From the NCBI RefSeq assembly GCF_900129045.1, contig NZ_FQTX01000002.1, forward strand, positions 310,001-374,000: 64,000 nt of DNA. The letters run 5' to 3'. Shown piece by piece: positions 19,565 through 38,282 of the stretch. Below the pieces are notes generated by a model. The model was not told where the DNA came from. It ran no database searches and was given only the letters and a program-made list of their open reading frames with translations. The position numbers and the translations under genes were made by a program. The DNA comes from Bifidobacterium merycicum DSM 6492 (GTDB taxonomy: Bacteria; Actinomycetota; Actinomycetes; Actinomycetales; Bifidobacteriaceae). The first letter of the stretch is position 1. Every line of letters starts with the position of its first letter.

Positions 19565-20794
19565 TCATCGGTCCTCCCTGGGGCCCGGGCGGCCCCTTTC
19601 GTCGCGCCTCTGCTGCTGCGGTGGCGCGCTCCTCTGCCTCTGCCGCTCGGCACCGCGCCTTTCGGCGGGACCCGATCTGGACCCTTGTGACCTGGCGCCG
19701 GCGGGCCTCCTGGCCGGCGGCGCCTGCGTTCGCTCGGGAAGCATTTCCGTGCGCTCGGCAACGGCCAAAACCTTCTCCCCCATCGCGGGGGAGGCCTCCG
19801 CCGCGCGCCTCAGCTCCTCCATGCTCCTGATTCTCCGGGAGTCGACGAACGAGACGGCCTCGGCGAGGTCGCGGAGCTCGTCGATTCCGCCGACCCTCAC
19901 GGCCTCCGCGGCAGCTGCGGCCAAGGCGCGGCCGCCATCCGTCGCGAGCGCCAACGCGCCGGACGAGAACCTCGCGAGCAGACGGTCCCGTCCGTAGGAG
20001 AGCCCGAGGCTCTCGCCGGATATGCGCCTCGTGGGGGCGTCGGCAAGCGAGTAGACCCAGTCGCGCCTCTGCGCCCTGGGCGAGTTGTCCGCAACTGCGA
20101 CGCCCATCTCGGAGAGCAGCGACCGGAAGTCGGCCTCGTCGCGGGCCACGGCGCGGGCGATCTCAATGCGCATGCGGATGTCGGCGACCCACGAGTAGAG
20201 GCCCCTACGCGAAAGCTCCGCCTCCGCGCGCCTCACGTAGGTCCTCTGCAGCGTGCGGCGGGGCGGGGCCGCGGTGCCTTTCGGTGCGTCCTTCAGGTAC
20301 GACAGCCCCATCTCCTTCGCGAACCTCTGCGCCGACCGCTTCAGGGCACGCGGGTCGGGGTCCTGAAGCCGGCGCAGGTTGCTCACGTTGGTGTTATTCA
20401 CGACGACGTGCGCGTGCGGGATGCGCCCGGCGTTGTCGTCGTGGTAGACGACGGCGACCTCGAAGTCGGCGAAGTTCTCGCGCACCCACGCCATCGTGAG
20501 ACGCCTGAGGTCGGCGAGATCGATGCGGTCGCCCGGGTCGGGAGAGAGGACGTAGTGCTTGTAGGTCCGTGCGGGCTTGCCCTTCCACGGTGTGTCGTTA
20601 CCAGCATCCTTCCTGGTCGCGTCCATGTCGCGGGCCCAGTCGTAGGGCGCGTACTCGGGAAGCTCCTCTGCGGGCTCGAGGGCCGGCGCCGGCAAGTTGA
20701 GGTAGTCGAACGCGAGCGCGCGTCCGTCCTTCGTCAGGTAGCGGAACACGCCGCCGCAGCCCGTGTGCCCGCTTATTGGCTTGACGATGGGCAC
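19565..20794 (-). CDS. Relaxase/mobilisation nuclease (PF03432-type)
   Basis: The 409-aa protein begins with the relaxase fold: RYLTKD near residue 19, YKHYVLSPDPGD near 88, and the metal-binding His motif RIPHAHVVVNNTN near 128-140. The catalytic Tyr is probably in the first 30 residues (FRYLTK), the usual place in this family. It would nick oriT and stay bound to the 5' end of the transferred strand. The C-terminal ~120 residues are Arg/Pro/Gln-rich and disordered. The gene begins 4 bp after mobC and is intact. Confidence 0.88.
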   Translation of the reverse strand: MPIVKPISGHTGCGGVFRYLTKDGRALAFDYLNLPAPALEPAEELPEYAPYDWARDMDATRKDAGNDTPWKGKPARTYKHYVLSPDPGDRIDLADLRRLTMAWVRENFADFEVAVVYHDDNAGRIPHAHVVVNNTNVSNLRRLQDPDPRALKRSAQRFAKEMGLSYLKDAPKGTAAPPRRTLQRTYVRRAEAELSRRGLYSWVADIRMRIEIARAVARDEADFRSLLSEMGVAVADNSPRAQRRDWVYSLADAPTRRISGESLGLSYGRDRLLARFSSGALALATDGGRALAAAAAEAVRVGGIDELRDLAEAVSFVDSRRIRSMEELRRAAEASPAMGEKVLAVAERTEMLPERTQAPPARRPAGARSQGSRSGPAERRGAERQRQRSAPPQQQRRDERGRPGPREDR

Positions 20795-20798
20795 GGCG

Positions 20799-21209
20799 TC
20801 ACTTCTTCACGTTGAACATGGCAGCCATGCGCTGAGCCTCGGCGCGTAGTACTGCGATGTCGGCGTTGGCGCGATCGACTTTCTCCTCGACGACCTGCAG
20901 CTGCTCGAGCGCGTCGGCGGCGTCGCACATGTCGCGGCGCAGGTACATGGCGATCCGGTTCAGCGCGTGCGCGATCTGGTTGTACTGGTAGCCCCACCAT
21001 CGGGTCTCGCGGGCGAGCTTGCGGGCGGAAACGGCGTCGACCACGAGCACGGGGCGTGTCTCCTTGCCATCGAAGTAGCCGCGGGGCAACCGGAGCAGGA
21101 TGCGGACAAGCTCGGAAACGGTGAGCCCGAGCTCTTCGGCAAGGGTCATTGCGGCCTCATGCTCGTCGTCGGTGACGCGTACGAACAGCCGCGGCTCCTT
21201 CTTCGTCAT
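20799..21209 (-). CDS. mobC: MobC-type relaxosome accessory protein
   Basis: A 136-aa protein starting at ATG 21209 with an AAGGAGCAGG RBS. The N-terminal half has a ribbon-helix-helix fold typical of MobC (LFVRVTDDEHEAAMTLAEEL, SELVRILL), and the middle contains WWGYQYNQIAHALNRIA, a conserved MobC signature. A coiled helix ends the protein. MobC binds oriT and helps the relaxase melt and nick it. It is immediately upstream of the relaxase gene and next to the inverted repeats proposed as oriT. Confidence 0.85.
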   Translation of the reverse strand: MTKKEPRLFVRVTDDEHEAAMTLAEELGLTVSELVRILLRLPRGYFDGKETRPVLVVDAVSARKLARETRWWGYQYNQIAHALNRIAMYLRRDMCDAADALEQLQVVEEKVDRANADIAVLRAEAQRMAAMFNVKK

Positions 21210-21350
21210 CCTGCTCCTTCGCCAGGTGGTGGGAGTTCCGAGCCGTCGCATGCGCGACGGCCCAGGGGCGCGGGGCATCCCCCGCATGGCGTAGTCTACG
21301 ACCGGAGCGAAGCGCAGGCGGAGACGGAGCAGGCCGAAGCCCCTGCAAGC

Positions 21351-21452
21351 CCTCGGAAGCCCTCATAACTTCCGAGGGACGTGCGAAACTCGCAGGGCAT
21401 GGGTGACCTTCGGCCACAAGCTCTATTCTGGCGCCTTGTGCGCACAGAATAG
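21351..21452. other. Candidate oriT: two inverted repeats upstream of mobC
   Basis: Two inverted repeats lie in the ~430-bp space between the divergent mobC and RHH genes. The first has 9-bp arms (CCTCGGAAG at 21351-21359 and its complement at 21369-21377). The second has 8-bp arms (CTATTCTG at 21423-21430 and CAGAATAG at 21445-21452) with a GC-rich centre. Inverted repeats upstream of mobC/relaxase are the usual setting of oriT. The nick site cannot be read directly. Confidence 0.45.
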
Positions 21453-21584
21453 GCAGCTTGCTAGCAACCAGAAAATCCCGTCAAGAGTCCCATATGGTGT
21501 ACACCCGTTTCACACCGGGGTCATAAGATGAGAATTGGAGGTGTTTGCTCGGATTTGGGTGTCCTTGCGTTCCTTCGCAGGTCG

Positions 21585-21616
21585 CGGTTGCAGTAAAATG
21601 ATTTGTATTGCAACCG
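21585..21616 (+). promoter_or_regulatory. Palindromic operator over a -10-like box upstream of the RHH/hsd genes
   Basis: An inverted repeat with 8-bp arms (CGGTTGCA at 21585-21592, TGCAACCG at 21609-21616) surrounds TAAAAT, a good -10 candidate; TTGCGT upstream may be a -35. The start codon of the ribbon-helix-helix gene is 22 bp further on. RHH proteins often bind such palindromes in their own promoters, so autoregulation of the RHH-hsdM-hsdS transcript is proposed. Confidence 0.5.
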
Positions 21617-21638
21617 TCAAGCACATGGAGGATGCGAA

Positions 21639-21842
21639 ATGGGCTACTCGGACCTCATCGCGAAGGGCGCTTCCAAACAGGAGCTCAAGGAGTTCTTCGC
21701 CGGAGGCGGGCAGACTGCGATAACGATCCGCATCCCAGCGAATCTGCGTGACGCCTTCAAGGAAGAGGCGGAGCTTCGTGGGATGAACTTCTCCGCGTTC
21801 CTGCGTATGTGCATGATTCAAGAGTTGAGCAAGAGAGGCTAA
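21639..21842 (+). CDS. Ribbon-helix-helix regulator in front of hsdM
   Basis: A 67-aa protein starting at ATG 21639 with a GGAGG RBS. Residues ~25-65 form a ribbon-helix-helix motif (TAITIRIPANLRDAFKEEAE, then GMNFSAFLRMCMIQEL). It ends 7 bp before hsdM and is probably part of the same transcript. Control of a type I R-M system by a small RHH protein makes sense in a mobile element, because restriction must be delayed until the new host DNA is methylated; this is inferred. An antitoxin role is less likely because no toxin gene is adjacent. Confidence 0.6.
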   Translation: MGYSDLIAKGASKQELKEFFAGGGQTAITIRIPANLRDAFKEEAELRGMNFSAFLRMCMIQELSKRG

Positions 21843-24881: not shown

Positions 24882-24884
24882 GTC

Positions 24885-26183: not shown

Positions 26184-28929
26184 TCGCTATTCAGAGGAAG
26201 AGGCTGTCCAGAAGCCGGCAGGAAATCGGTTGCGCTCGCTTGGCTGGGATCTTGTCTACGCCTGGAACGAAGAAGTGCTTGGGCAGTACGGCACGCTTGG
26301 GCGCACGAGCTACCGTGAGGTCGTGCTGCGCCCCCAGTTGCTCGATGCACTCGCCGAGTTGAACGATTGGCTTGATTCGGAGCAGTGCGAGGAGGCCGCC
26401 GATACCCTTCTGGCGACGCTCGCTACCGACTCGCCCTTGCAGACCAACGAGAAGAAGTACGGGATGTTGCGCGACGGTATCCCTGTGGAGCTGACTCGCG
26501 AAGACGGCAGCACCTACACCGAGAAGGCGCAGGTCTTCGACTTCGAGCATCCGGAGTACAACCGCTTCACCGCCGTCGAGGAGATGTGGGTGCACAGCGC
26601 CGACGGCGTCTACCACAAGCGGCCCGACCTGATGGGCTTCGTCAACGGCATACCGCTGCTTTTCGTCGAGTTCAAGCGTCACGACAAGGACGTGCGCCGC
26701 GCATATGAGGACAACTACTCCGACTACCAGGACACCGTCCCGCAGCTCTTCCACTTCAACGCGTTCGTTATGCTCTCGAACGGGCTCGAGGCCAGGGTCG
26801 GGACGCTCGGCAGCAAGTACGAGTTCTTCCACGAGTGGAAGCGCCTCGCCGAGGGCGAGCCGGGCGCGATCGACCTGGACACGATGCTCTTGGGCATGTG
26901 CAACAAGCGGACGTTCATGGACCTGTTCGAGAACTTCATCCTGTTCGACCACTCCGGGTCCAAGACGGCCAAGATTCTTGCCCGCAACCACCAGTACCTC
27001 GGCGTGAACCAGGCGATCGAGTCGTATCGTCAGCGCGAGCTTCGAAACGGCAAGCTTGGCGTGTTTTGGCACACACAGGGCTCGGGCAAGAGCTATTCGA
27101 TGGTTTTCTTCGCGCAGAAGGTGCGCCGAGCCTTCGAGGGGTCGCCCACGTTCGTCGTGGTGACGGACCGCGAGGAGCTGAATAAGCAGATAGCCGGCAC
27201 GTTCGCCGGGTGCGGCCTTCTGGGCGGCACCGACGCCAAGCAGTACATCGCCACGAGCGGCAAGAACCTCCACACGCGCCTGGAGGGCAACCCCAGCTTC
27301 GTCTTCACGCTCATCCACAAGTTCAACGACCCCCACGCGGAGCCGATCGTGCCGGACCACGACATCGTAATCCTCTCTGACGAGGCGCACCGAACCAACA
27401 ACGGCACGCTCGCCCAGAACATGGTGCGCATGCTGCCCACCGCGTCGCGCCTGGGCTTCACGGGGACGCCGCTGTTCAGCTACGACAACATAACCGAACG
27501 CACCTTCGGCGGCTACGTGTCGGTCTACGACTTCGCGACCGCCGTGGAGGACGGCGCCACGGTGCCGCTGTTCTACGAGAACCGAAGCGACCTCCTGGAG
27601 ATCGACAACCCCGAGATCAACGACGAGCTGGCCGAGGCCGTGGAGGCCGCCGACGTCGACGAGAACCAGCGCGAGAAGCTGGAGCGCGACCTTGCCCGCG
27701 AGTACCACGTGATAACCTCAGAAAAGCGCCTGGACAAGATTGCGCGGGACTTCGTGAGGCACTACTCGGGCATCTGGGAGTGCGGCAAGGCGATGTTCAT
27801 CAGCGTGGACAAGGTGACGGCCGCCCGCATGCACGGGTTGGTGCAGAAGTACTGGGCCGAGGAGATCGCCGCGCAGGAGGCCGCCCTCAAGCACGACACC
27901 CAGCAGGAGGCGCAGGAGCGCCAGCGCAAGATCGACTGGATGCGCGAGACCGAGATGTGCCTGGTCGTGAGCGAGGAGCAGAACGAGATCGCCACCTTCG
28001 CCAAGTGGGGCATCGACATCGCGCCGCACCGCAAGAAGATGGCGACGCGGGAGCTGGACAAGGAGTTCCGCGACGCGGACAACCCCTTCCGCGTGGTATT
28101 CGTGTGCGCGATGTGGCTCACCGGCTTTGACGTGAAGCCGCTCGCCGCCATGTACTTCGACAAGCCCATGAAGGCCCACACGCTGATGCAGGCCATAGCC
28201 CGCGCGAACCGCGTCGCGGAGGGCAAGAGCAACGGCCTCATCGTCGACTACATCGGCGTGGTGAAGGCCCTGCGTCAGGCGCTCGCTGACTACACGCGCG
28301 ACCCCGGCGAGGGCCGCGGTGACGACCCGGTGCTCGACAAGGACGAGCTCATTGCGCGCATATACGAGCTGCTCGTGGCCATCGAGACATTCTTGAACGA
28401 CTGCGGGTTCTCCCTCAAGACGCTCATGGCAGCCGGCGAGTTCGAGCGGCTGGCGCTCGTTAAGGACGGGGCCGACGCGGTGAGCGTCAGCGACGAGACG
28501 CGCAAGCGCTACGGCATCATGGCCCGCGAGCTGTTCAAGTACTTCAAGTTCGTGGAGAAGGGCGACGTGGACGGCGGCGCCTGGGCGAGGCGCGACGCCA
28601 TAGACGCCATCTACAAGCTGCTGACCAAGCGGCGCGACACCGCCGACACGACCGACATCATGGTGAGGCTGCAGCAAATCATCGACGAGTACATCGACGT
28701 TCGCGTCGCCGATGACAAGGGCGAGGGCCGGTTTGACATATCGCGCATCGACTTCGACCTGCTGCACCGTGAGTTCGAGAAGGCCAAGCAGAAGAACCTG
28801 CTCGTCGGGGAGCTGCGCGACGTGATCGAGGATCGGCTGGTGAAGGCCCTGAAAGAGAACCCGCGCCGCGCCGACTTCTACGAGCGCTACCAGAAGATCA
28901 TCAACGAGTACAACCAGGAGCAGGACTGA
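26176..28929 (+). CDS. hsdR: Type I R-M restriction subunit, C-terminally truncated by a premature TGA
   Basis: The 917-aa product has the usual HsdR layout: a PD-(D/E)XK nuclease domain (D in RPDLMGF near 150, FVEFK near 163-167), then a SF2 translocase with Walker A GSGKS (~301), DEAH (~401) and TGTP motifs. Reading stops at TGA 28927-28929, but homologous coding sequence continues beyond it in the same frame (ASIEATFEKLMKLSEDL...) and again from 29,069. A CGA-to-TGA change would explain the stop. The missing ~110 C-terminal residues normally form the domain that helps dock HsdR on the methylase core, so restriction may be weak or lost, while nuclease and motor motifs are intact. Confidence 0.85.
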   Translation: MASRYSEEEAVQKPAGNRLRSLGWDLVYAWNEEVLGQYGTLGRTSYREVVLRPQLLDALAELNDWLDSEQCEEAADTLLATLATDSPLQTNEKKYGMLRDGIPVELTREDGSTYTEKAQVFDFEHPEYNRFTAVEEMWVHSADGVYHKRPDLMGFVNGIPLLFVEFKRHDKDVRRAYEDNYSDYQDTVPQLFHFNAFVMLSNGLEARVGTLGSKYEFFHEWKRLAEGEPGAIDLDTMLLGMCNKRTFMDLFENFILFDHSGSKTAKILARNHQYLGVNQAIESYRQRELRNGKLGVFWHTQGSGKSYSMVFFAQKVRRAFEGSPTFVVVTDREELNKQIAGTFAGCGLLGGTDAKQYIATSGKNLHTRLEGNPSFVFTLIHKFNDPHAEPIVPDHDIVILSDEAHRTNNGTLAQNMVRMLPTASRLGFTGTPLFSYDNITERTFGGYVSVYDFATAVEDGATVPLFYENRSDLLEIDNPEINDELAEAVEAADVDENQREKLERDLAREYHVITSEKRLDKIARDFVRHYSGIWECGKAMFISVDKVTAARMHGLVQKYWAEEIAAQEAALKHDTQQEAQERQRKIDWMRETEMCLVVSEEQNEIATFAKWGIDIAPHRKKMATRELDKEFRDADNPFRVVFVCAMWLTGFDVKPLAAMYFDKPMKAHTLMQAIARANRVAEGKSNGLIVDYIGVVKALRQALADYTRDPGEGRGDDPVLDKDELIARIYELLVAIETFLNDCGFSLKTLMAAGEFERLALVKDGADAVSVSDETRKRYGIMARELFKYFKFVEKGDVDGGAWARRDAIDAIYKLLTKRRDTADTTDIMVRLQQIIDEYIDVRVADDKGEGRFDISRIDFDLLHREFEKAKQKNLLVGELRDVIEDRLVKALKENPRRADFYERYQKIINEYNQEQD

Positions 28930-29396: not shown

Positions 29397-31499
29397 ATGA
29401 ACGCAAACGATGCACAATTCCTCCCATTCCTGGGTACGGCAAACGCCCAGTTCGTCATCCCCGTATACCAGCGCCTTTACTCATGGACGACCAAGGACTG
29501 CGAAACGCTCTGGGTCGACATCATGCGCGCTGGCAAGTTCGGGCACACGCATTTCATCGGCTCCATGCTCTACGCCCCTGAGGCCGGAGGCACCCTGACC
29601 GGCGTGAACAGGTACCTCCTCATTGATGGCCAGCAGCGCATGACGACACTCACGCTACTGCTCTCCGCATTCATCGAATACCTGAAGGAAGACGAGTCGC
29701 GCGCCGATTTCCTAGAGACGACCATCGGCGGCATCCGCCGCATGTACCTGTTCAACGACGAACAAAAGGGCGATGCCCGCTACAAGCTTGTTCTCTCGCA
29801 GGACGACCAGACGACGCTTTTCAGCATCGTAGGTGACGTGGCGCAACCTGAGCAGCCTTCTCAGCTCATCGTGGACAACTACCAGTATTTCAAGGACAAG
29901 ATGCACGAGAAGGGCTTCGACGCCCAGCAGCTGTGGGTCGGACTCAAGATGCTGCTCATCGTCGACACGAAACTCGGCGAAGGTGATAACGCGCAGCTCA
30001 TCTTCGAGTCGATGAACTCCAAGGGAAAGCCGCTCACCGCAATAGACCTTATCCGCAACTTCATGCTTATGTCGCTTCCCAGCAAGGAGCAGACGCGACT
30101 GTACGAATCCTACTGGCATCCCATGGAGCAGATGTTTGGCATGGGCAACGAGCGCGTCATCAACGAGTTCTTCTGGAACTGGCTTTGGCTCAAGATTCCC
30201 AACAGACAGCCGAAGTTCGACGAGGTGTACGACGAGTTCAAGCTTTACATTGGTGGCAACCCGCAGCTCAAGGTCGAGGAGGTGCTCGTCGACCTCAAGG
30301 ATGGCGCCGACCACTACACGAAGATCTTCCTCGATCGCGAGAAGGACCCCGAGCTGGCAGCCGCGTTCCGAAGCTTCAACAGGCTGGGCATCAACGCTGC
30401 GCGCCTGCTGCTGATGGAGCTCTACGCCCAGTACGAAGCCGACAACCTGACAAAGGACGAGTACATCGGGCTCATCAGAATGCTCGAATCGTTCCTGTTC
30501 AGGCGCTCCGTCTGCGGAAGGCTCACGACTGGCCTCAACCACTACTTCTCGAACCTCGCGAAGCAGCTGGAATCGCAGGACATCGTGGAGTACATCACGG
30601 CGAACCTGCTACTCCAAGACGAGAACAAGACTGCATATTTCCCGACGGACGAGTATTTCGAGGAGCAGTTCAAGGCGCGCGACTGCTACAACCGCTTTCG
30701 CGACAAGTGCGTCTACTACCTCGAGAGAATCGAGAACTGGCATCATCCGAAGGAGCCTATCTCGGGCTACTCGTATCAAGTCGAACACGTTCTTCCACAG
30801 ACCATCGACAGCGTGCCCGAATGGCAGGAGGCGCTCGGTGACAACTGGGAGCAGCTCCACGAACGCTACTGCAACTCGCTCGGAAACCTGACCCTCACCG
30901 GATACAATCAGGAGTACTCGAACAAGCCCTACGAGGAGAAGCTTCATAAAGAGGATGATGGCCTGCTCTGCAGTCCGCTCTACCTGAACAGCGCATTCGC
31001 TTCCGAACCCGTTTGGAATGTCGAGGCGATTGAACGCCGGGCGGACAAGCTCATGGCAGATGCTCTGAAGATTTGGCCGAGGCCGCAGCTGGATGAGGCA
31101 ACTCTGGCTAAGTACACGCCCTCCAAGCGCAAAGATGGAACGGAGTGGACTATCGAGGAGCACCACACCTGGCTCGCGAACGGGGGTCCCGCACACGATC
31201 TCTTCGAGACGCTTCGCGCCCGCATCGCCGAGGAGTTCCCCTCGTGGACCGAATACGTGAAGAAGTACTATGTTGGCTACAGAGTTGGCAAGAGGAAGCA
31301 GACGCTCAGCATCCAGGCTAGGAAGAGCGGGCACCTGGTGCTCGGCGTACGCAAGACCGTCGACGAGCTGAACGACCCGAATGGGATTTGCGTAGACAAG
31401 CGTGCTGTACAGGGCATAGGGCCAGGCATGCCGACTATGATTATTCTAGAGGGAGCATCCGACATCGATGGCTGCATCGAAATTTTGCGTCAAATCTAA
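29397..31499 (+). CDS. GmrSD-like protein: DUF262 plus DUF1524 HNH domains
   Basis: A 700-aa single-chain protein. The N-terminal DUF262 domain has a ParB-like NTPase signature: FVIPVYQRLYSW near 20 and DGQQRMTTL near 76. The C-terminal DUF1524 domain contains an HNH-type nuclease motif (VEHVLPQ near 463, then GNLTLT near 496). The last ~100 residues form a further small domain. GmrSD-type enzymes cut DNA with modified cytosines and are type IV restriction systems. It starts 28 bp after the hsdR remnant, so it may share the hsd transcript, and it ends at a strong hairpin. All motifs are intact. Confidence 0.82.
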   Translation: MNANDAQFLPFLGTANAQFVIPVYQRLYSWTTKDCETLWVDIMRAGKFGHTHFIGSMLYAPEAGGTLTGVNRYLLIDGQQRMTTLTLLLSAFIEYLKEDESRADFLETTIGGIRRMYLFNDEQKGDARYKLVLSQDDQTTLFSIVGDVAQPEQPSQLIVDNYQYFKDKMHEKGFDAQQLWVGLKMLLIVDTKLGEGDNAQLIFESMNSKGKPLTAIDLIRNFMLMSLPSKEQTRLYESYWHPMEQMFGMGNERVINEFFWNWLWLKIPNRQPKFDEVYDEFKLYIGGNPQLKVEEVLVDLKDGADHYTKIFLDREKDPELAAAFRSFNRLGINAARLLLMELYAQYEADNLTKDEYIGLIRMLESFLFRRSVCGRLTTGLNHYFSNLAKQLESQDIVEYITANLLLQDENKTAYFPTDEYFEEQFKARDCYNRFRDKCVYYLERIENWHHPKEPISGYSYQVEHVLPQTIDSVPEWQEALGDNWEQLHERYCNSLGNLTLTGYNQEYSNKPYEEKLHKEDDGLLCSPLYLNSAFASEPVWNVEAIERRADKLMADALKIWPRPQLDEATLAKYTPSKRKDGTEWTIEEHHTWLANGGPAHDLFETLRARIAEEFPSWTEYVKKYYVGYRVGKRKQTLSIQARKSGHLVLGVRKTVDELNDPNGICVDKRAVQGIGPGMPTMIILEGASDIDGCIEILRQI

Positions 31500-31530
31500 C
31501 TCATAGAGAAAGCTACTTGGCGAAATGCTA

Positions 31531-31575
31531 AGCCCCTCGGCGCTAGCATCTTGGTATACCTTGCGCCGAGGGGCT
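31531..31575. terminator. Bidirectional hairpin between convergent genes
   Basis: A perfect 13-bp stem (AGCCCCTCGGCGC at 31531-31543 and its complement at 31563-31575) with a 19-nt loop lies between the GmrSD-like gene and the minus-strand YraN-like gene. Symmetry and position fit a shared terminator, although there is no long T run on either side. Confidence 0.6.
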
Positions 31576-31621
31576 GCCCGTGGCCGCCAGGCCCCGGGCC
31601 GTCAAGCCTTGGGGCGAGGTC

Positions 31622-31975
31622 CTACCCCAGCGGCGTGATCGCGTTGATGTGGTGGCGGATGAGCGCTCGGTTCTCTCCGAGGATGAGCACGCCCACGATG
31701 TCGTATCGGACCTCGGTGTTGCTCAGGTCAGCCTCGGCCAGGTAAGCCGCGGCGATGCGCTCGAAGGCCTTGCGGTCCGGAGCCTCCTCCGGGATGCCCT
31801 CGCCGGCGTTCTCGCTGACCTCGCAGTCGATGAAGACCAGCGCATCGTCCTCGTCGGTGGCGATGAAGTCGACGGAGTCCCTGCCGTGGCACCAGCCGTC
31901 CTCGAGGATCTCGTAGCCCTTGAGCTCCAGGTAGCGCCTGACGCCCTGCTTCGCCCTCTGAATCGTTGCCTCCAT
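31622..31975 (-). CDS. YraN/UPF0102-like protein with altered nuclease site
   Basis: The 117-aa protein has the YraN pattern: a helix with KQGVRRYLELKGYEIL, then VDFIATD, then the strand LVFIDCEVSE, followed by a helix and RYDIVGV. YraN-family proteins have a PD-(D/E)XK fold with a FVEVK-type motif at this last strand. Here it reads FIDCE, so the usual acidic/Lys pair is replaced and catalytic activity is doubtful. A Shine-Dalgarno of AAAGGAGG precedes ATG 31975. The same start context and leader are found before the gene at 32915-33580. Its role is unknown; a non-catalytic inhibitor or decoy would fit. Confidence 0.6.
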   Translation of the reverse strand: MEATIQRAKQGVRRYLELKGYEILEDGWCHGRDSVDFIATDEDDALVFIDCEVSENAGEGIPEEAPDRKAFERIAAAYLAEADLSNTEVRYDIVGVLILGENRALIRHHINAITPLG

Positions 31976-32180
31976 GATTGACCTCCTTTGGTGTTGCGGC
32001 CCGCCCCTGTGGCGAACCTTGTGGCGCCTCGTCCGCTCCGGTTCCCGGAGGCTGCAAGGGAGGAAGCGAAACCCGGAGGGCTCGAGTTTTTCTGGCGCCT
32101 TCTTGGGATTCCCCGGAAAAAGTTTTCGCGGCCCTTGCGGCCGTGAGGGGTTCGGTGCGAACGTGAGCGTCCAAGGAGAG
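31976..32180 (-). promoter_or_regulatory. Structured leader A upstream of the YraN-like gene
   Basis: The ~200 bp before ATG 31975 resemble the region before ATG 33580 over their whole length (roughly 70% by eye). Shared blocks include AAAGGAGGTCAATCATG or its close variant at the start codon, CCCTCCGGGTTT, TTCCTCCCTTGC and CGCAAGGG. Two short hairpins are shared, and the stem around AAGGG changes on both sides (CGGCC/GGCCG here, CGCGC/GCGCG in leader B), which indicates selection for structure. It may be a structured promoter or a cis-acting RNA. Confidence 0.6.
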
Positions 32181-32502
32181 CGCAGGGCGGGAAAGCGGCC
32201 CTCAGGAGGGCTTCTGGAGGCTCAGAGGGTGCTGCAGGTCGTCCGGGGCGTGCAATCATGGCGAGATTTCGAGCACGGTGGTTCGATGCGGGCTTCATGT
32301 TCCGTCGCCCGACTGTCGCGACTGGCTTTCTGCTGAGGCCAGTGCCGCCGGGGTTTTCCGAAAGGCATCAGGTCCGCATGGTCATCGAAGCGCTGTGGCC
32401 TCCTGCCATATGAGGCTGCGCTTTCCGAGGCTGCGGCGCCGCGGGAATGTCATTTTCGGAGAACGCGCCTCCTCACCACGCTGCAATCGCGTTGCTGGGG
32501 TT
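32181..32502. other. Gene-free region between leader A and the next inverted repeat
   Basis: No convincing gene on either strand: open frames here have no ribosome binding site and atypical composition. A short segment near 32345-32365 (GCCGCCGGGGTTTTCCG) recalls part of leader B and may be a degenerate copy. Otherwise no pattern is seen. Confidence 0.5.
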
Positions 32503-32525
32503 CTCGCCCCAAGGCTTGACCGGAG

Positions 32526-32771
32526 CTACTGCACCGCGCCCGCAGAGCCCTCGGCGCTCGAAATGGATTCGCTCCGAAGCCCGTCGGGTTTGCCCTCTGC
32601 GATCGAGAGCACCTCTTGGAGCGACTCGTCCGCGAAATCGAGCGCCTTCAAGATGACGAAGCCCGCGTTGGGGCTGTCGCCGAGGTCGAATACGCCGGCC
32701 ACGATGATGTCCTGAACACCCTTCACGATGCACTGGGCGTCGTAGGCGCGGTCGTACAGATTCGTTTCCAT
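32526..32771 (-). CDS. Small acidic hypothetical protein
   Basis: An 81-aa protein starting at ATG 32771 behind AAAGGGGG. It is acidic, probably helical, with a central hydrophobic stretch (GVQDIIVAGVFDLG) that is too short and polar to be a clear membrane segment. No family is recognised. It stands between two genes that carry the duplicated leader but has its own short upstream region of about 80 bp, with a GTTCG repeat near 32,780 and 32,815. Small size, acidity and location among accessory genes would fit an antirestriction or inhibitor protein, but this is speculation. Confidence 0.5.
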   Translation of the reverse strand: METNLYDRAYDAQCIVKGVQDIIVAGVFDLGDSPNAGFVILKALDFADESLQEVLSIAEGKPDGLRSESISSAEGSAGAVQ

Positions 32772-32852
32772 GTGATCACCCCCTTTCGAACGTAATCGTG
32801 CGAGCATGTCGTGACTCGAACGTGACCATTCGCGCACGGATGCGTGACATGA

Positions 32853-32890
32853 GAAAGAAAAGACCGGCGCCCCAGTTCGGGACGCCGGCC
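32853..32890 (-). terminator. Rho-independent terminator of the 32915-33580 gene
   Basis: On the minus strand, a GC-rich stem-loop (32862-32890, GGCCGGCG pairing with CGCCGGTC) is followed by TTTTCTTTC. It lies 24 bp after the stop of the upstream gene and separates it from the small gene that follows. Confidence 0.8.
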
Positions 32891-32914
32891 TGAGCGGCTG
32901 TTATGCGGATGCGG

Positions 32915-33580
32915 CTATCCGCGCGGCTTTATCCTCGCCATCGGTCCATGGACGTAGTTGTTGGAGTTCCAGGAGAAGTCCCCACCGTGGTCCATCCAGG
33001 CGACGTAGGGCAGGTCCGGGTAGGTGACCTCGGTCTTGCCGTCTTCGCCCTCGACCCACACCGAGATGCGGTTGAACTCGGGCTGGCCGAAGCCCACGAC
33101 CGGATACGCCTTCCAGTCGTCGTAGTGCGAGAACATCCAGACCTCGTCGCCAATCCGAAGCTCGCTCACCGGAACCTCGACGGAGTCCAGGAACTCTCCG
33201 AGGCGCTCCTCTACGGGCATCGAGCGGTCGAAGTCGCGAAGCATCTGATCGAAGTCGTACTCCTGCTGCTCGACGAACCCGTCGTAGAGTCCGATGCGGT
33301 CGACGATCTTCCAGCCATCCACGACGTAGATGCCGTTGTCGCCGGGGTCCATGCGCTCGTCGTCGCTGTAGGGCATGATGCCGACGGAGTTGGTGCCTCC
33401 GAAGAAGTTGCCCATGACCTGGCACATGCGCGCCCAGCCGTAGTCGTCCTTGGCGGGGTCCCGGTAGCCCTTGAGCTCGCAGTAGCGTAGCAGCGGCTCA
33501 ACGGTGTCGCGTCCTCCGTTCCAGTGCAGGTAGAGACCCATCTTGCGCTCCGGCGTGGTGATGACGGCCCTGTTTCCCAT
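32915..33580 (-). CDS. Hypothetical protein with MGNRAVIT start
   Basis: A 221-aa acidic, aromatic-rich protein starting at ATG 33580, directly after GGAGG. Its N-terminus (MGNRAVITTPERKMGLYLHW) and the following NGGRDTVEPLLRYCELKGYR are distinctive; proteins with this type of start occur in other conjugative elements as unnamed genes, as far as I recall. The last third (LRIGDEVWMFSHYDDWKAYP) looks like a small beta-rich domain. No catalytic motif is seen. It has its own terminator and is preceded by leader B, so it is a single-gene unit under structured control. Function unknown. Confidence 0.6.
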   Translation of the reverse strand: MGNRAVITTPERKMGLYLHWNGGRDTVEPLLRYCELKGYRDPAKDDYGWARMCQVMGNFFGGTNSVGIMPYSDDERMDPGDNGIYVVDGWKIVDRIGLYDGFVEQQEYDFDQMLRDFDRSMPVEERLGEFLDSVEVPVSELRIGDEVWMFSHYDDWKAYPVVGFGQPEFNRISVWVEGEDGKTEVTYPDLPYVAWMDHGGDFSWNSNNYVHGPMARIKPRG

Positions 33581-33790
33581 GATTGACCTCCTTAAGCCTT
33601 GGACCCGCCCCTTGCGGGCCCTGTGGCTCCGACGCCGCCGGGGTTCGCGGAGGGCGCAAGGGAGGAAAGCGGAAACCCGGAGGGCCCTGAGTTTCCGTGC
33701 ATCCGGCTTGGTTGTCTCCACGGAAAGTTTTCCGCGCCCTTGCGCGCGTGAGCGGTTCTCGGCGAAGCTCGGGGAGCGCATGGCCTGCAA
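33581..33790 (-). promoter_or_regulatory. Structured leader B upstream of the MGNRAVIT gene
   Basis: Paralogous to leader A. In the sense direction it shows the hairpin CGCGC-aagg-GCGCG, next to GGAAAACTTTCC, then CCCTCCGGGTTTCC and TTCCTCCCTTGCGCCC, and a second CCCGC/GCGGG stem near the start codon. The block ends in GGAGGTCAATCATG like leader A. The upstream limit is approximate. A structured promoter that is active on single-stranded DNA, as known for leading-region genes of conjugative plasmids, is one possible meaning. Confidence 0.6.
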
Positions 33791-33905
33791 GGGACGGGCC
33801 TGGCTTCGGAGGGCAGTGGGAAGCGGGTTCACCGTCTCGCGGAAAGAGGGCTCAACTGGGATGTGACGACTATGACGGCTGTGACGGGTATACCCCTAGT
33901 TGCCG

Positions 33906-33980
33906 TCACATGAACGCGAATACGGACCTGAAGAGCCATCTGGCAAACCTGAGCAGCGCTTTGAGCAGCTTCATCGGCAT
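33906..33980 (-). CDS. 24-codon basic, hydrophobic peptide
   Basis: On the minus strand ATG 33980 (or ATG 33974, two codons later) follows AAAGGAGG at ideal spacing and opens a frame of 24 codons ending in TGA at 33906. The peptide is an amphipathic cationic helix rich in Leu, Phe, Arg and Trp (it includes LKALLRFARWLFRSVFAF). This is typical of small membrane-active peptides such as type I toxins. It begins 10 bp after the restored stop of the MobC-like pseudogene. An inverted repeat (TGTGACGG/CCGTCACA, 33880-33910) follows it. Translation is likely; function is unknown. Confidence 0.4.
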   Translation of the reverse strand: MPMKLLKALLRFARWLFRSVFAFM

Positions 33981-33990
33981 CCTCCTTTCG

Positions 33991-34357
33991 TCACCTGCGA
34001 GCCATGTCGAGAAGCATCTCCTCGGCGGCGGGAACAGGGCTCGCTTCGCTGGTCCGGAAGCCGACGAACTCCTTCGATAGCAGCTCGGCAAGCGCAATGA
34101 CGCGCTCGTCGGGGCAGCCTCCGTCGACGATGCGTGAGAGCTCGTCGGTAGACGAGGCCCATCCTGTCGCGCAGGGCTTTGTAGACGCGGCTGCTCGGCG
34201 TGACGACGATTTCCTCGCATTGAAGGCGCTTCACGATGTAGTCCTGTTTGGTCATCCCGCTCGCCGCCACGAGGTCGTTGATCCGTGCGCTCTGCTCGGG
34301 CGTCACACGGAATCCGATGGTTATTAACCTTTTGCGATGGTCGTTCGGGCAGGGCAT
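33991..34357 (-). pseudogene. MobC-like/RHH mobilisation gene with a one-base frameshift
   Basis: The first ~70 residues from ATG 34357 are normal (RKRLITIGFRVTPEQSARIN, then GMTKQDYIVKRLQC), matching ribbon-helix-helix proteins of the MobC or mobilisation type. After MGLVY the frame becomes Arg-rich nonsense. Removing one C near 34145-34150 restores DELSRIVDGGCPDERVIALA and a frame that ends at TGA 33991-33993, just before the RBS of the small peptide gene. The uncorrected frame would run to 33971. The start overlaps the integrase stop, so the pair was probably one operon. A sequencing error is possible. Confidence 0.7.
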
Positions 34358-35427
34358 CAGACAGACCTCCTTCTGGCATCGAGCGCATTTGCCATGTCGC
34401 GCTGCTTGTTGGGGAACATGTGCGCATATCGATATGTGATGTTGGCGCTCTCGTGGCCGACGCGGTCCGCAATCGCTACCGCGGAGAACCCCATGTCGAT
34501 GAGCAGCGACACGTGGCTGTGCCGCAGGTCATGGATGCGGATTCTCTTGACTCCTGAGGCCTTGCAACCTCGGTCCATCTCGTGGTGCATGCGGATCTTG
34601 GTGAACGGGAAGAGCCGATCGTGTTCTCCGATTTCGAGCGAAGCCATATACTCCGCAAGCTCCTCTGCGAGGAACTTCGGCATCGTGACCAACCTGACCG
34701 ACTTCTTGGTTTTCGGGTCGGTGATGGCGTCTCTTCCGTGAATGCGCTGATAGGACTTCGTCACCGAAATCGTTGAGCGCTCCAGGTTGATGTCCGACGG
34801 CGTAAGGGCCAGCATCTCTCCGAGGCGAAGTCCGCACCAGTAGAGCACCTCGAACGCCGTGAACGAATCGGGCTTGTCCATGATGGCCTCTGCGAACTTG
34901 AGATACTCCTCTTTGGTCCAGAACTTCATCTCGTCACCTTGTTTGGACCCCATCTTCTCTACGCGCGCGCAGGGGCTCTTGGGAAGCCCGTAGAACCTTA
35001 CGGCGTGGTTGAATATGGCGTTGAGCTGATTGTTGACAGAGCGGAGATACGTCTCCGAATACCCCTTACCCGTTGGGCCCTTCTCGGACATGATTTCGTT
35101 CTGCCAGCGTATGACGTCGATGGTCGTAATCTCGTCCATGCTCATGTCGCCGAAGAAGGGCATGATCTTCTTGTCAATCATGTGCTGCTTGGTGTTCCAT
35201 GTGGTCTCGCGCAGGCGCGGCTTCATGTCCTCGGCGTACAGATCCATGAATTGCGAGAACGTCATGCTCATGTTCTCGGAGTCGGCCTTCGAAAACGAAG
35301 CCTCCCACTCGCATGCTTCCGCCTCGCTCCTGAAGCCGCGCTTTATGGTGTGGCGCCTGTGGTTGCGGGTGTCCCTGTACCAGACCTGCGCAGTCCAAGT
35401 ACCGTTTTCCTCACGCCTAACGCTCAT
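34357..35427 (-). CDS. int: Tyrosine recombinase (integrase) of the ICE
   Basis: A 356-aa integrase with an arm-binding N-terminal domain (WYRDTRNHRRHTIKRGFRSE), a core-binding domain (residues ~55-160) and the catalytic domain. Catalytic residues are visible: Arg in YWCGLRLGE (~195), HDLRHSH (~301), VGHE (~324) and the nucleophile Tyr in TYRYAHMF (~333). It should recombine the guaA 3' end with the element's att site. The start overlaps the excisionase-like gene by 11 bp. It is intact and lies next to the right end, as expected. Confidence 0.92.
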   Translation of the reverse strand: MSVRREENGTWTAQVWYRDTRNHRRHTIKRGFRSEAEACEWEASFSKADSENMSMTFSQFMDLYAEDMKPRLRETTWNTKQHMIDKKIMPFFGDMSMDEITTIDVIRWQNEIMSEKGPTGKGYSETYLRSVNNQLNAIFNHAVRFYGLPKSPCARVEKMGSKQGDEMKFWTKEEYLKFAEAIMDKPDSFTAFEVLYWCGLRLGEMLALTPSDINLERSTISVTKSYQRIHGRDAITDPKTKKSVRLVTMPKFLAEELAEYMASLEIGEHDRLFPFTKIRMHHEMDRGCKASGVKRIRIHDLRHSHVSLLIDMGFSAVAIADRVGHESANITYRYAHMFPNKQRDMANALDARRRSV

Positions 35428-35623
35428 CGCCCGCGCCCCTATCTGGGAGGTCCGCGAAGTAGGTCAGCATGAACTTGCCCTCGTCCACCTTACCCGGAAT
35501 GGTCTTCTTGCCCTCGGCCTCCATGTCAGCGTTGAGATCTCTGATGATGCGGTACGCAGTACCCTTGGACACGCCAAGCTTGCTGGCGACTTCCTCCGCT
35601 CCGATGAGTCTGTACTCGTGCAT
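35417..35623 (-). CDS. Excisionase-like HTH protein
   Basis: Starting from ATG 35623 (AAGGAG RBS at 7 bp; another ATG lies at 35629) the product is 68 aa. Its core (RLIGAEEVASKLGVSKGTAY, then RIIRDLN) is a MerR-like helix-turn-helix typical of excisionases. It precedes int on the same strand with an 11-bp overlap, the normal order for xis-int. It probably bends DNA at the arm sites during excision. Transcription starts in the operator region at 35649-35726. Confidence 0.7.
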   Translation of the reverse strand: MHEYRLIGAEEVASKLGVSKGTAYRIIRDLNADMEAEGKKTIPGKVDEGKFMLTYFADLPDRGAGDER

Positions 35624-35648
35624 ATGCATTCTCCTTGTCTCTGATACC

Positions 35649-35726
35649 GCACGATATCGTGCTGTTTCATTACGAACCATAACAGCACGTTTGTGTGCTG
35701 TCAATGCATTGCGCACGATTTCGTGC
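35649..35726. promoter_or_regulatory. Three palindromic operators between xis-int and the Xre repressor
   Basis: GCACGATATCGTGC (35649-35662, perfect palindrome), GCACGTTTGTGTGC (35685-35698) and GCACGATTTCGTGC (35713-35726) share GCAC-N6-GTGC. They lie in the only divergent promoter region of the integration module. The Xre protein encoded at 35789 is the obvious binder, giving a lambda-like switch between repression and excision. Confidence 0.75.
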
Positions 35727-35788
35727 TGTTGTATGATTTGCCGTGTTGTTTGATGGCTCCTGATGCCACTGATTCGGGAAGGGAAGGC

Positions 35789-36214
35789 ATGGGCGTAGGG
35801 GATCGCATAAGGGCGCTGCGGAAGTCCGCTGGTCTTACTCAGAAAGAACTTGCGGCATCCATCGGGCTCACTGAGTCCGCGGTCCGCAATTACGAGCTCG
35901 GGCTTCGTACTCCCAGTGAGGAACAGCTTGCCGCCATGGCGGAGTCGATCGGCGTCGCTCCTGAAGCGCTTATGGACATCCGTGTTGAGAGCGCCCGGGA
36001 GGCCCTCGAGGTTCTATTCAGGATGGAAGAAACGCTCGGGCTGGTGCCTCAAGGCGACGGGACCTCGATGGGGCTTGGAATTGACCCTAGCGCCGAGCAG
36101 GCCCCCGTCATGCACCAATCCCTCGTGGCCTGGAAGCACATGCGCGACAGCCTGGAAGATGGCTCCGTGACCCCGGATGAGTACGCGGCTTGGAAGGCCT
36201 CCTTTACCGCATAG
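35789..36214 (+). CDS. Xre-family repressor
   Basis: A 141-aa protein starting at ATG 35789 (RBS GGGAAGGG). The first ~60 residues are an HTH_3 domain: IRALRKSAGLTQKELAASIG, then LTESAVRNYELGLRTPSEEQ. The C-terminal ~70 residues are a helical tail (VAWKHMRDSLEDGSVTPDEY) likely used in dimerisation or signal response. There is no self-cleaving Ser-Lys protease domain, so induction must differ from LexA/CI-type cleavage. It is read away from xis-int and probably regulates both. Confidence 0.85.
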   Translation: MGVGDRIRALRKSAGLTQKELAASIGLTESAVRNYELGLRTPSEEQLAAMAESIGVAPEALMDIRVESAREALEVLFRMEETLGLVPQGDGTSMGLGIDPSAEQAPVMHQSLVAWKHMRDSLEDGSVTPDEYAAWKASFTA

Positions 36215-36255
36215 TCGAGAAGAAGCGGCTTGCAGCCCGTGTTTTTGCACCTTTT

Positions 36256-36634
36256 GGGAGTATTATGTCAGCCCGGTCGTGCGGGAAATCCCTGGCGTTT
36301 TGCCCTCCCGAGTTCCAATAGAAGCCTTCAATCATCCAAAATACTCCCCATTAACTACCTGCGGAAACGTTGTTTTCCCTTCTTTTCGACATGGGTGAGT
36401 TCCAAAGTGAGTTCCAACTGCGTGCAAAAACGTCGTGCGGCTTATTTGGGGAGTATTTTCCCAGTGGGCCATTCTCACCGTTTGGTACGGATTAGCACCT
36501 CTTGTCACCTTTTAGCACCGGTTCATGGAGAAGGCGTGCATGGGGAGTATTCCCTGATGAAAAACTGCAGGTAAATCGCTTGTTTTAGCCATGGAAAAGC
36601 CCCGAAGCAGGCGCTTCGGGGCTCGAATACTCCC
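36256..36634. repeat. Right-end arm repeats of the ICE
   Basis: Copies of GGGAGTATT lie at 36256-36264, 36448-36457 and 36542-36551, and in inverted orientation at 36340-36349 and 36626-36634. GTGAGTTCCA is at 36395-36404 and 36407-36416; TACCTGCGGAAACG at 36356-36369; CGACATGGG at 36388-36396; GCGTGCAA at 36419-36426. The order partly repeats that at the left end. They probably bind the integrase arm domain and the excisionase. No gene is present in 36215-36719. Confidence 0.7.
36595..36623 (-). terminator. Terminator for guaA supplied by the element
   Basis: An 11-bp perfect stem (AGCCCCGAAGC at 36598-36608 and its complement at 36613-36623) is followed on the minus strand by TTTT. It lies ~100 bp beyond the guaA stop, inside the inserted DNA, so the ICE carries a replacement terminator for its target gene. 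Confidence 0.75.
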
Positions 36635-36719
36635 TATGGTTTCGGCGCATTTTGTCCAAACGGAGCTACTCGATGCCAATCAGGGTGAGTACATGCTGGA
36701 ACTCAGAAAAAACGCTGAA

Positions 36720-36736
36720 TCACTCCCACTCGATGG
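36720..36736 (-). other. Predicted attR core at the guaA 3' end
   Basis: The last 17 bp of guaA (TCACTCCCACTCGATGG on the plus strand) are the expected integration core, because the element begins immediately after the guaA stop and insertion keeps the gene whole. The true crossover point cannot be placed without attL, which is outside the window. A 14/17 match in inverted orientation is at 33-49. Confidence 0.5.
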
Positions 36737-38282
36737 TTGCCGGCGGCTTGGAGGTGCAGTCGAGCACCACGCGGTTGATCTGGCGGCATTCGTTGGTGAT
36801 GCGCGTGGAGATCGTGGCCAGCACGTCGTACGGCACGCGGGACCAGTCGGCGGTCATCGCGTCCTCGGAGGAGACGGGGCGCAGCACAATCGGGGAACCG
36901 TAGGTGCGCTCGTCGCCCTGCACGCCGACGGAGTGCACGTCGGCCAGCAGCACCACCGGGCACTGCCAGATATCACGGTCCAGACCGGCCTTCGACAGCT
37001 CTTCGCGGGCGATGGCGTCGGCCTCGCGCAGCACATCCAGACGTTCCTTGGTGATTTCGCCGATGATACGGATGCCCAGACCCGGGCCCGGGAACGGCTG
37101 ACGCCACACGATTTCGTCCGGCAGACCAAGCTCGGTGCCGATCGCGCGGACCTCATCCTTGAACAGGGTGCGCAGCGGCTCGATCAGCTGGAACTTGATG
37201 TCCTTCGGCAGACCGCCGACATTGTGGTGCGACTTGATGTTCGCGGCGCCGTCGCCACCGCCGGACTCCACCACATCCGGGTAGAGGGTGCCCTGCACGA
37301 GGAACTTGACTTCCTTGCCCTGCGCGCCGGCCTCTTCGATCACCTGACGTTGGGCCTTCTCGAACGTGCGGATGAACTTCTCGCCGATGATCTTGCGCTT
37401 GCGCTCCGGCTCGCTCACGCCCTTGAGCGCGGTGAGGAAGTCATCGGCGGCATCCACGGCGATCAGCTTGATGCCGGTCGCCTTGACGAAGTCGTGCTTC
37501 ACCTGCTCGACTTCGCCCTTGCGCAGCAGGCCGTGGTCCACGAACACGCAGGTCAGCTGATCGCCGATCGCCTTGTGCACCAGAGCGGCGGCCACGGCGG
37601 AATCGACGCCGCCGGACAGGCCGCAAATCACCTGCGCGTCGCCGACCTGCTCGCGGATCTTCGCGACCTGATCGTCGATGATGCTCGAAGCGTCCCAGTC
37701 GGAATCAAGGCCGGCGCACTCGTGCAGGAAGGTTTCGATGAGCTTCTGACCCATCGGGGTGTGCTTGACCTCAGGGTGCCACTGCACGCCGTACAGCTTG
37801 CGGGAGGGATCCTGCATGGCGGCCACGGGAGCGCCTTCGGTGTGCGCGAGCACTTCGAAGCCTTCCGGTGCCTTCTTCACGGCGACGCCATGGCTCATCC
37901 ACGTGTTCTGCTCGGCGGGGGAGCCGTCGAGCAGGCCTTCGACGTGGTCGATCACGGTATCGGTCTTGCCGTACTCGCCCAGAGCTGCCTTGTCGACGTC
38001 ACCGCCGAGCTCATGCGCCATCACCTGGAAGCCGTAGCAGATACCAAGCACCGGAACGCCGGCATCGAACACCTTCGGATCGATGGTGGGGGCGTCGGGT
38101 TCGAACACGGAAGCCGGGCCACCGGAAAGGATGATGGCCTTCGGGTCCTTGGCGAGCATCTCGTCGGCCGGCATGGAATGCGGTACCAGCTCCGAATAGA
38201 CGTTTGCCTCGCGTACGCGGCGGGCGATGAGCTGTGCGTACTGGGCTCCGAAATCAACTACGAGCACAGGGCCTTTTGCCAT
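36720..38282 (-). CDS. guaA: GMP synthase (glutamine-hydrolysing)
   Basis: A 520-aa GuaA that converts XMP to GMP using glutamine and ATP. The N-terminal amidotransferase domain has the catalytic Cys in GICYGFQ, with His and Glu in [11 protein letters not shown]. The ATP-pyrophosphatase P-loop is [10 protein letters not shown], and the C-terminus ends in the typical PATIEWE. ATG 38282 follows AGGGAGAC and is preferred to an upstream in-frame codon. The gene is intact up to the last codon, though the ICE starts at once after it. Confidence 0.97.

Follow-up and report, generated by a model that had tools for sequence, protein, structure and literature searches.

Two adjoining genes near the right end of an integrative and conjugative element (ICE) in Bifidobacterium merycicum DSM 6492 are each preceded by a structured leader of about 200 bp. 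At a probability of roughly 0.57, we favour the reading that these leaders are Frpo-like single-stranded DNA (ssDNA) promoters or priming hairpins, which would serve as expression elements of early-establishment genes in actinobacterial ICEs. The DNA analysed, hereafter the window, is a 64,000-nt stretch of contig NZ_FQTX01000002.1, and all coordinates refer to it; the two genes are designated ORF A and ORF B, and their leaders A and B. The reading is built on what was computed: that the leaders form a family, how they fold, which genes they precede, where and on which strand they stand with respect to the relaxase gene, and that selection acted on the complement of the mRNA.

A preliminary description of the window had reported the duplicated leader, and the coordinates and letters it quoted are correct. 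Leaders A and B align by blastn with 74% identity over 190 bp (E 5e-22), and their mean column identity in a MAFFT alignment is 76%. When leader A was compared with the 2.27-Mb host genome, the next blastn match after leader B was 20 bp long (E 0.09). The two leaders share the end sequence GGAGGTCAATCATG, exact at 31973-31986 and 33578-33591; with up to two mismatches it occurs at three sites, against 0.4 expected. The genes that follow are unrelated, as had been claimed, since ORF A belongs to UPF0102 and ORF B has no Pfam match.

The first relative came from G096, a genome that shares its family with the window's, and stands before a UPF0102-like gene there. A DNA pattern derived from three leaders returned 61 stretches in a species-genome collection, 30 of which were judged by eye to be leaders. 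A covariance model built from nine leaders (R1) matched all 30 of these, seven of them being in the model, and none of the ten non-leaders tried out of 31. Matches to R1 were found in 65 of 138 genomes of an Eggerthellaceae family, 22 of 140 genomes of an Olsenella family and 2 of 189 Bifidobacteriaceae, the window's own family, giving 89 genomes over the three family searches. For the class of a Caccousia genome, which we take to be Clostridia, the count was 0 of 291 in a search that had stricter filters and no positive control there. No match to the leader patterns was returned from viral contigs, and when 396 genomes of the phylum were searched with an exact pattern, the window's genome alone contained it. 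At E 0.001, 113 leader matches were collected in 65 loci, nine of them in one contig stretch (L167). The loci were chosen mostly from model matches; 60 stretches were picked with a preference for clusters and long contigs, and the Eggerthellaceae picks came from among the matches listed.

A near-identical leader joined to a UPF0102 gene recurs in Collinsella, Olsenella, Gordonibacter, Slackia, Arcanobacterium haemolyticum, Varibaculum and Bifidobacterium asteroides (loci L012, L021, L024, L025, L029, L031 and others). To judge from this near-identity, one type of ICE has apparently spread among these genera in recent times.

The covariance-model search places the leader before unrelated genes in related ICEs. 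For 108 of the 113 leaders a gene could be assigned downstream, as a frame of 40 codons or more, and the partners comprise 42 UPF0102 proteins, 32 members of the ORF B family, 12 ParB-like proteins, six zinc-ribbon/amidoligase-like proteins, three DUF3846 proteins, two DprA, two helix-turn-helix (excisionase-like) proteins, two members of a 103-aa family and seven single cases, one of them an SSB; Pfam names of the partner groups were taken from one representative each. The presence of SSB, ParB and DprA among the partners counts in favour of the early-establishment reading. The junction with the gene is regular, the start codon lying 19-22 nt past the end of the model in 68 of 86 leaders (largest gene cluster), with start codons picked by a script that prefers starts resembling those with a ribosome-binding site (RBS). 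The gene order ParB, ORF B, UPF0102 is seen in seven loci (L111, L150, L152, L153, L154, L155 and L161).

Two frames combine partner families. An ORF B-type protein of 340 aa (L116:10502-11521) matches UPF0102 as well, and one ParB-type frame, in L152, matches UPF0102 too. These double matches suggest fusions, and the former suggests a functional link between ORF B and UPF0102, the two commonest partners. The densest array (L167:6123-16813) carries nine same-strand leaders upstream of a relaxase gene, eight with an assigned gene, and its partners (SSB, DprA, DUF3846 and UPF0102 proteins and unknown families) are a source of candidate establishment genes.

The consensus fold is one long imperfect hairpin spanning the leader, followed by a small 3' hairpin and then by the RBS. 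The main hairpin is composed of outer stems and a near-invariant GCAAGGG/CCCTTGC helix, the arms of which lie 70-75 nt apart. A short GCRAAA/TTTYGC stem, recognized by eye and partly present in the reverse-complement model R2, comes next and encloses a TTTTCNNN/NNNGAAAA hairpin and a CCCTCCGGG hairpin. Over 110 distinct sequences, 89.5% of cells are paired, versus 72.0% for shuffled and 35-56% for slid partners, and none of 500 shuffles reached any of five measures. The compensatory change looked for in homologues is strong, with changes on both sides in 39 of 44 pairs. The alignment of the 110 sequences was fitted to the structure, which inflates the pairing figures, but the first nine leaders, aligned without structure, already contained 15 pairs with double changes. 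RNAalifold gave 0 and at most nine pairs on structure-free MAFFT alignments of 75 and 48 leaders, respectively. Simple recent duplication without any selected structure would explain why two similar leaders adjoin in the window; its probability is negligible, being contradicted by the 110 distinct copies before unrelated genes and by the double changes.

The element that covaries is the long-range GCAAGGG/CCCTTGC hairpin and not the local stem proposed in the preliminary description. There, a paired change around GCAAG (CGGCC/GGCCG versus CGCGC/GCGCG) had been taken as a sign of selected structure. The letters are present as quoted, but across the family this stem shows no covariation. The stem was readable in 77 of 89 non-redundant leaders, and its pairs there were no better than shuffled partners, at 39-56% versus 40-58% for positions 2-5 and 82% versus 82% for position 1.

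The strand on which the fold was selected can be read from wobble pairs, because an RNA pair tolerates G-U but not A-C, whereas a hairpin on the complementary strand reads a sense A-C as a G-T wobble. For the wobble counts a leader tree was used, and an event was a single change away from a Watson-Crick pair of the inner stems; neither pair 18-299 nor the pairs in the CCCTCCGGG hairpin entered the counts, and four wrong-strand matches were dropped from the R2 alignment. With the sense model, 62 AC events (wobble on the complementary strand) stand against 28 GU events (wobble on the sense strand; p=4e-4), a conservative figure given that this model favours GU when aligning. The reverse-complement model gave 72 complementary-strand wobbles versus 24 on the sense strand (p=1e-6). 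The asymmetry is present among GC-derived pairs (48:23 and 51:21 with the two models) and AT-derived pairs (14:5 and 21:3), and survives removal of the most AC-rich pair (p=0.01 and 3e-5). A count of all such changes gave a GU:AC ratio of 34:73 with the sense model and a complementary:sense ratio of 81:28 with the reverse-complement model.

Folding energies, which are independent of the alignment of pairs, point the same way. The difference between strands was corrected by subtracting the same difference in dinucleotide shuffles, for 83 of the 113 leaders (those with at least 85% identity, shorter than 140 nt or containing N were dropped), 48 of which had a usable slice of the 3' hairpin. For the inner hairpin, the complementary strand has the more favourable corrected energy in 68 of 83 leaders with DNA parameters (mean -2.7 kcal/mol, p=4e-11) and in 61 of 83 with RNA parameters (p=5e-7). 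As a positive control, F-type Frpo was better on the complementary strand in 12 of 12 copies, 12 of 24 copies being used. Uncorrected energies, calculated on a set that also omits leaders longer than 200 nt, make the complementary strand more stable in 66 of 75 leaders and in 24 of 24 Frpo copies. The main hairpin thus appears to have been selected on the strand complementary to the mRNA. Deamination bias of the transferred strand was considered as the sole cause of the asymmetry and rejected, as AT-derived pairs are asymmetric too and the adjacent 3' hairpin has the reverse strand preference.

This small 3' hairpin has the opposite sign, the sense strand being better in 36 of 48 leaders (p=3e-4 with DNA and 2e-5 with RNA parameters), and its wobbles show a sense excess of 20:5 with the sense model. 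Its sense-strand preference is also what a cis-acting RNA in the 5' untranslated region would show, whether riboswitch-like, protein-binding or a translational lock; such a leader would be expected to end at the RBS, as these do, and sequestration of the RBS is predicted in the full-length RNA. An ordinary cis-acting RNA does not predict the asymmetry in wobbles and energy of the main hairpin, which points to the other strand, and the named partner genes are without a common metabolic theme, so that we consider this explanation decidedly unlikely. A known RNA family was rejected after the search with Rfam 15, in which no family was found in the leaders at gathering score or at E 1.

Most leaders lie on the strand of the relaxase gene and upstream of it. 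A relaxase (PF03432) was found within 30 kb of 87 leaders, 82 of which are on its strand and 78 also upstream of it, and 52 of 56 relaxase loci have no such leader on the opposite strand. These figures derive from 137 leaders taken from among the matches listed, omitting rows from genomes that were not relaxase-searched or from contigs without a match. PF03432 was searched in 60 genomes, 11 of them without a match, and 50 of the 137 leaders, including those from genomes outside the 60, have no PF03432 match within 30 kb. Many of the elements are related or near-identical, as seen from repeated distances, so the counts are not independent and the binomial p (1e-11) is no more than indicative. 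Between the leader genes and nikA, the window and six of 18 other relaxase loci carry an inverted repeat, CCTATTCYGTG...CAGAATAG or CACGGAATAG, which is a candidate origin of transfer (oriT).

This arrangement can be compared with R64 (typed MOBP), in which genes for a methylase, antirestriction, SSB, ParB, PsiB and ArdA are followed by nikA-nikB, all on one strand, and with F, which has a like layout with traM instead of nikA. The window relaxase is presumably also MOBP, judging by its family. For conjugative elements with such genes, one study reports that leading-region genes use the transferred strand (PMC11541004). By analogy, we infer that the transferred strand of the window is the + strand, which serves ORF A and ORF B as template. 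As the fold appears to have been kept on the strand expected to enter first, the leader may switch genes on before the second strand is made. The preliminary description had proposed a structured leading-region promoter acting on incoming ssDNA, and its interpretation is partly supported; the layout would fit the predicted side of oriT.

The mechanism that we envisage would begin with conjugation, when the transferred strand, taken as the + strand, enters the recipient single-stranded. Each leader on the entering strand would fold into the long imperfect hairpin, which could recruit the recipient RNA polymerase as a double-stranded promoter, as a site of primer synthesis, or as both. Genes for UPF0102, ORF B, ParB, SSB and DprA proteins would then be transcribed ahead of second-strand synthesis. 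With a start site close to the hairpin base, the transcript would retain the small 3' hairpin alone, in front of an accessible RBS. Once the element is established as double-stranded DNA, read-through mRNA would carry the whole leader, with the RBS largely hidden. For the full leader the predicted unpaired probability of the Shine-Dalgarno (SD) sequence averages 0.31, versus 0.84 for a transcript starting after the hairpin, and it is lower in 68 of 71 leaders. In its most specific form the proposal is of a widespread, modular ssDNA promoter of Gram-positive ICEs without classical -35/-10 elements, in which the entering-strand hairpin starts transcription and the RNA leader hides the RBS from read-through, such that the genes would be made only while the DNA is single-stranded; we put this forward tentatively and regard it as somewhat doubtful.

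Several observations weigh against the ssDNA promoter or priming reading. With regard to position, five of the 87 leaders are on the other strand and four more are downstream of the relaxase, the leaders of the window lie some 10-12 kb from the candidate oriT, and the assignment of the nicked strand is carried over from the R64 and F layout. With regard to strand, leader A by itself is unremarkable when its + strand is folded as DNA (z -0.99; 31 of 200 shuffles are as good), and leader B is moderately more stable than its shuffles (z -2.15); the strand signal comes from the family, not from single leaders. The RNA controls have the right sign but are weak, with tRNA not significant (n=19) and cobalamin riboswitches from relatives (n=16 of 30 listed) at +2.1 kcal/mol (p=0.03) with RNA parameters and +0.3, not significant, with DNA parameters. 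With the reverse-complement model the wobbles of the 3' hairpin give no excess for the sense strand (4:6), so the two-part reading of the leader depends mainly on the energies. The predicted effect on the RBS depends weakly on the 35 nt upstream (0.31 versus 0.40 shuffled, p=0.02). Finally, a scan of 31400-34400 on both strands found 0 sites with sigma-70-type -35/-10 pairs, mismatched stems and other sigma factors being outside its reach, and only a TTGC in the hairpin sits where a -35 could be. The lack of sigma-70 signals leaves room for a priming site or for another recognition protein.

It is conceivable that the transferred-strand hairpin is a priming site (ssi or sso) for second-strand synthesis that stands before genes by chance and is not a promoter. 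Strand-specific structure and absent -35/-10 elements would both be accounted for, and ICEBs1 sso1 (PMC4595007) is a described single-strand origin in a Gram-positive ICE. Pure priming would not need the placement that is seen, namely copies that end near a start codon with an RBS, before unrelated genes and nine times in one contig, and we regard it as unlikely. Promoter and priming readings are not exclusive, in that the title of Masai and Arai 1997, as cited, names both functions for Frpo. A site for protein binding or recombination on single-stranded or cruciform DNA, such as relaxosome or SSB docking or attC-like cassette exchange, would likewise give a transferred-strand fold, and the L167 array of leaders with differing genes resembles cassettes. 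The constant junction with RBS and start codon stands against this explanation, which we hold to be highly improbable.

The ssDNA promoter reading invites comparison with known systems. Such promoters have been described for enterobacterial plasmids, and they are reported for F and ColIb-P9 (PMC8708921); the sources on Frpo and ssi are Masai and Arai 1997 and Nasim 2004, as cited in PMC11541004 and PMC8708921. In the work of Samuel et al. (PMC11541004), Frpo was sought by BLAST and by a -35/-10 consensus. The leaders resemble Frpo in being long imperfect hairpins that fold better on the strand complementary to the mRNA, in occurring in several copies per element, and, as far as the layout shows, in their placement ahead of presumed leading-region genes (ssb among them), with the relaxosome genes on the same strand and oriT, here a candidate, downstream. 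They differ in lacking a sigma-70-type -35/-10, in being GC-rich, in residing in actinobacterial ICEs and in having a small sense-leaning hairpin before the RBS, and their promoter role is a prediction. A further difference, which also counts against the Frpo-like reading, is that leader A has no blastn match (E 1e-5) in 72,556 plasmid records, at least 5000 of them Frpo-bearing; none was found among phages either.

EGeRS1, as described in PMC8708921, designates regulatory regions of 400-600 bp in Bacillus plasmids of the pLS20 family. The leaders share with it a Gram-positive setting, the lack of a strong known promoter, and a conserved region repeated directly before the RBS of several operons per element; in pLS20 these operons serve establishment, and the repeated region is structured. 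The authors of that work judge an ssDNA promoter highly unlikely for EGeRS1, because the transferred strand of pLS20 is the non-template strand; in contrast, the leader layout predicts the template strand as the transferred one, if the transferred strand is as inferred above. ICEBs1 sso1, as described in the source already cited, is similar in that it too folds, is orientation-specific and sits on the single-stranded form of its Gram-positive ICE, but as described there it is not a gene leader, whereas the leader family is many-copied with each copy joined to an RBS. A full-text literature search that covered subscription papers thinly turned up no account of an element like this in ICEs from gut Actinomycetota.

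Were the ssDNA promoter or priming reading correct, the leader family would allow the leading region and its early genes to be recognized from sequence only and offer a handle for finding counter-defence genes, with UPF0102 and ORF B as the commonest partners. It would also provide a defined system in which to test whether incoming single strands are transcribed in Gram-positive bacteria. The wobble-asymmetry test is applicable to other suspected single-strand elements, for example EGeRS1.

The features of the window are collected in Table 1. Near the right end of the ICE, the minus strand carries the integrase, a NikA-like gene, ORF B and ORF A. To the left of the leader genes, on the plus strand, are a GmrSD-type gene (29397-31499) and a type I restriction-modification system (21850-28929), and farther left a NikA-like protein and a MobA/VirD2-type relaxase (minus strand) are followed by type IV secretion system genes (plus strand). 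A single search for direct repeats of at least 40 nt in the 20 kb left of the window found none.

Table 1. Coordinates of the leaders, their structural parts and associated ICE features in the window. Leaders A and B were both among the nine sequences from which R1 was built; R2 is the reverse-complement model.
Feature	Position	Strand	Evidence
Leader A core (main hairpin and 3' hairpin), upstream of ORF A	31997..32172	-	R1 181.5 bits, R2 177.7 bits
Leader B core	33601..33777	-	R1 147.7 bits, R2 146.4 bits
Leader A, 5' arm of near-invariant helix, GCAAGGG	32132..32138	-	97.6% of cells paired in family
Leader A, 3' arm of near-invariant helix, CCCTTGC	32054..32060	-	Sequence, covariation
Leader B, 5' arm of near-invariant helix, GCAAGGG	33737..33743	-	Sequence, covariation
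Leader B, 3' arm of near-invariant helix, CCCTTGC	33656..33662	-	Sequence, covariation
Leader A, small 3' hairpin directly before RBS	31998..32018	-	Covariation helix 8; family strand test favours sense
Leader B, small 3' hairpin directly before RBS	33601..33621	-	Covariation helix 8; family strand test
ORF A RBS and spacer AAAGGAGGTCAATC	31976..31989	-	Sequence
ORF B RBS and spacer AAGGAGGTCAATC	33581..33593	-	Sequence; predicted SD unpaired probability 0.25 in full leader, 0.81 in transcript starting after hairpin
ICE integrase	34357..35427	-	Pfam integrase domains
Second NikA-like protein, between integrase and leader B	33971..34357	-	PF21983 E 1.8e-9
ORF B, 221 aa, unnamed family	32915..33580	-	No Pfam match
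ORF A, 117 aa, UPF0102/YraN-like	31622..31975	-	Pfam PF02021 E 6e-11
NikA-like relaxosome protein	20799..21287	-	PF21983 E 1.4e-5, 25.6 bits, slightly below curated cut-off of 27
MobA/VirD2-type relaxase	19565..20794	-	PF03432 E 2e-11
Candidate oriT inverted repeat CAAGCTGCCTATTCTG...CAGAATAGAGCTTG	21417..21460	-	Similar repeat in same place in six other loci

The structure model of ORF B is confident (pLDDT 87), and two predicted phage proteins of unknown function match the protein. Comparison with the PDB gave a best E of 0.23 by sequence and no hit by fold at E 0.001, and searches of Pfam, NCBIfam, PHROG and PADLOC returned no match.

The window was also compared with a relative from the Eggerthellaceae search (L148). 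The region containing nikA and the candidate oriT (20443-21841) is 89% identical and that from the leaders to the integrase (31533-37208) 86%, while the restriction-modification and GmrSD genes between them have no match longer than 150 bp in L148. On this comparison of sequences the intervening genes are exchangeable cargo, and the flanking regions probably reflect recent transfer between distant Actinomycetota. The GmrSD/DUF262-type protein, whose best PADLOC match is Orf5, adjoins the type I restriction-modification system as ICE cargo between the candidate oriT and the leaders. Some 340 nt between an 81-aa ORF and leader A (32190-32526) are without an assigned gene. An 18-nt perfect inverted repeat, GTCAAGCCTTGGGGCGAG, at 31601-31618 and 32503-32520, with 884 nt between its arms, brackets leader A and ORF A; by exact search, L148 has a single copy of it.

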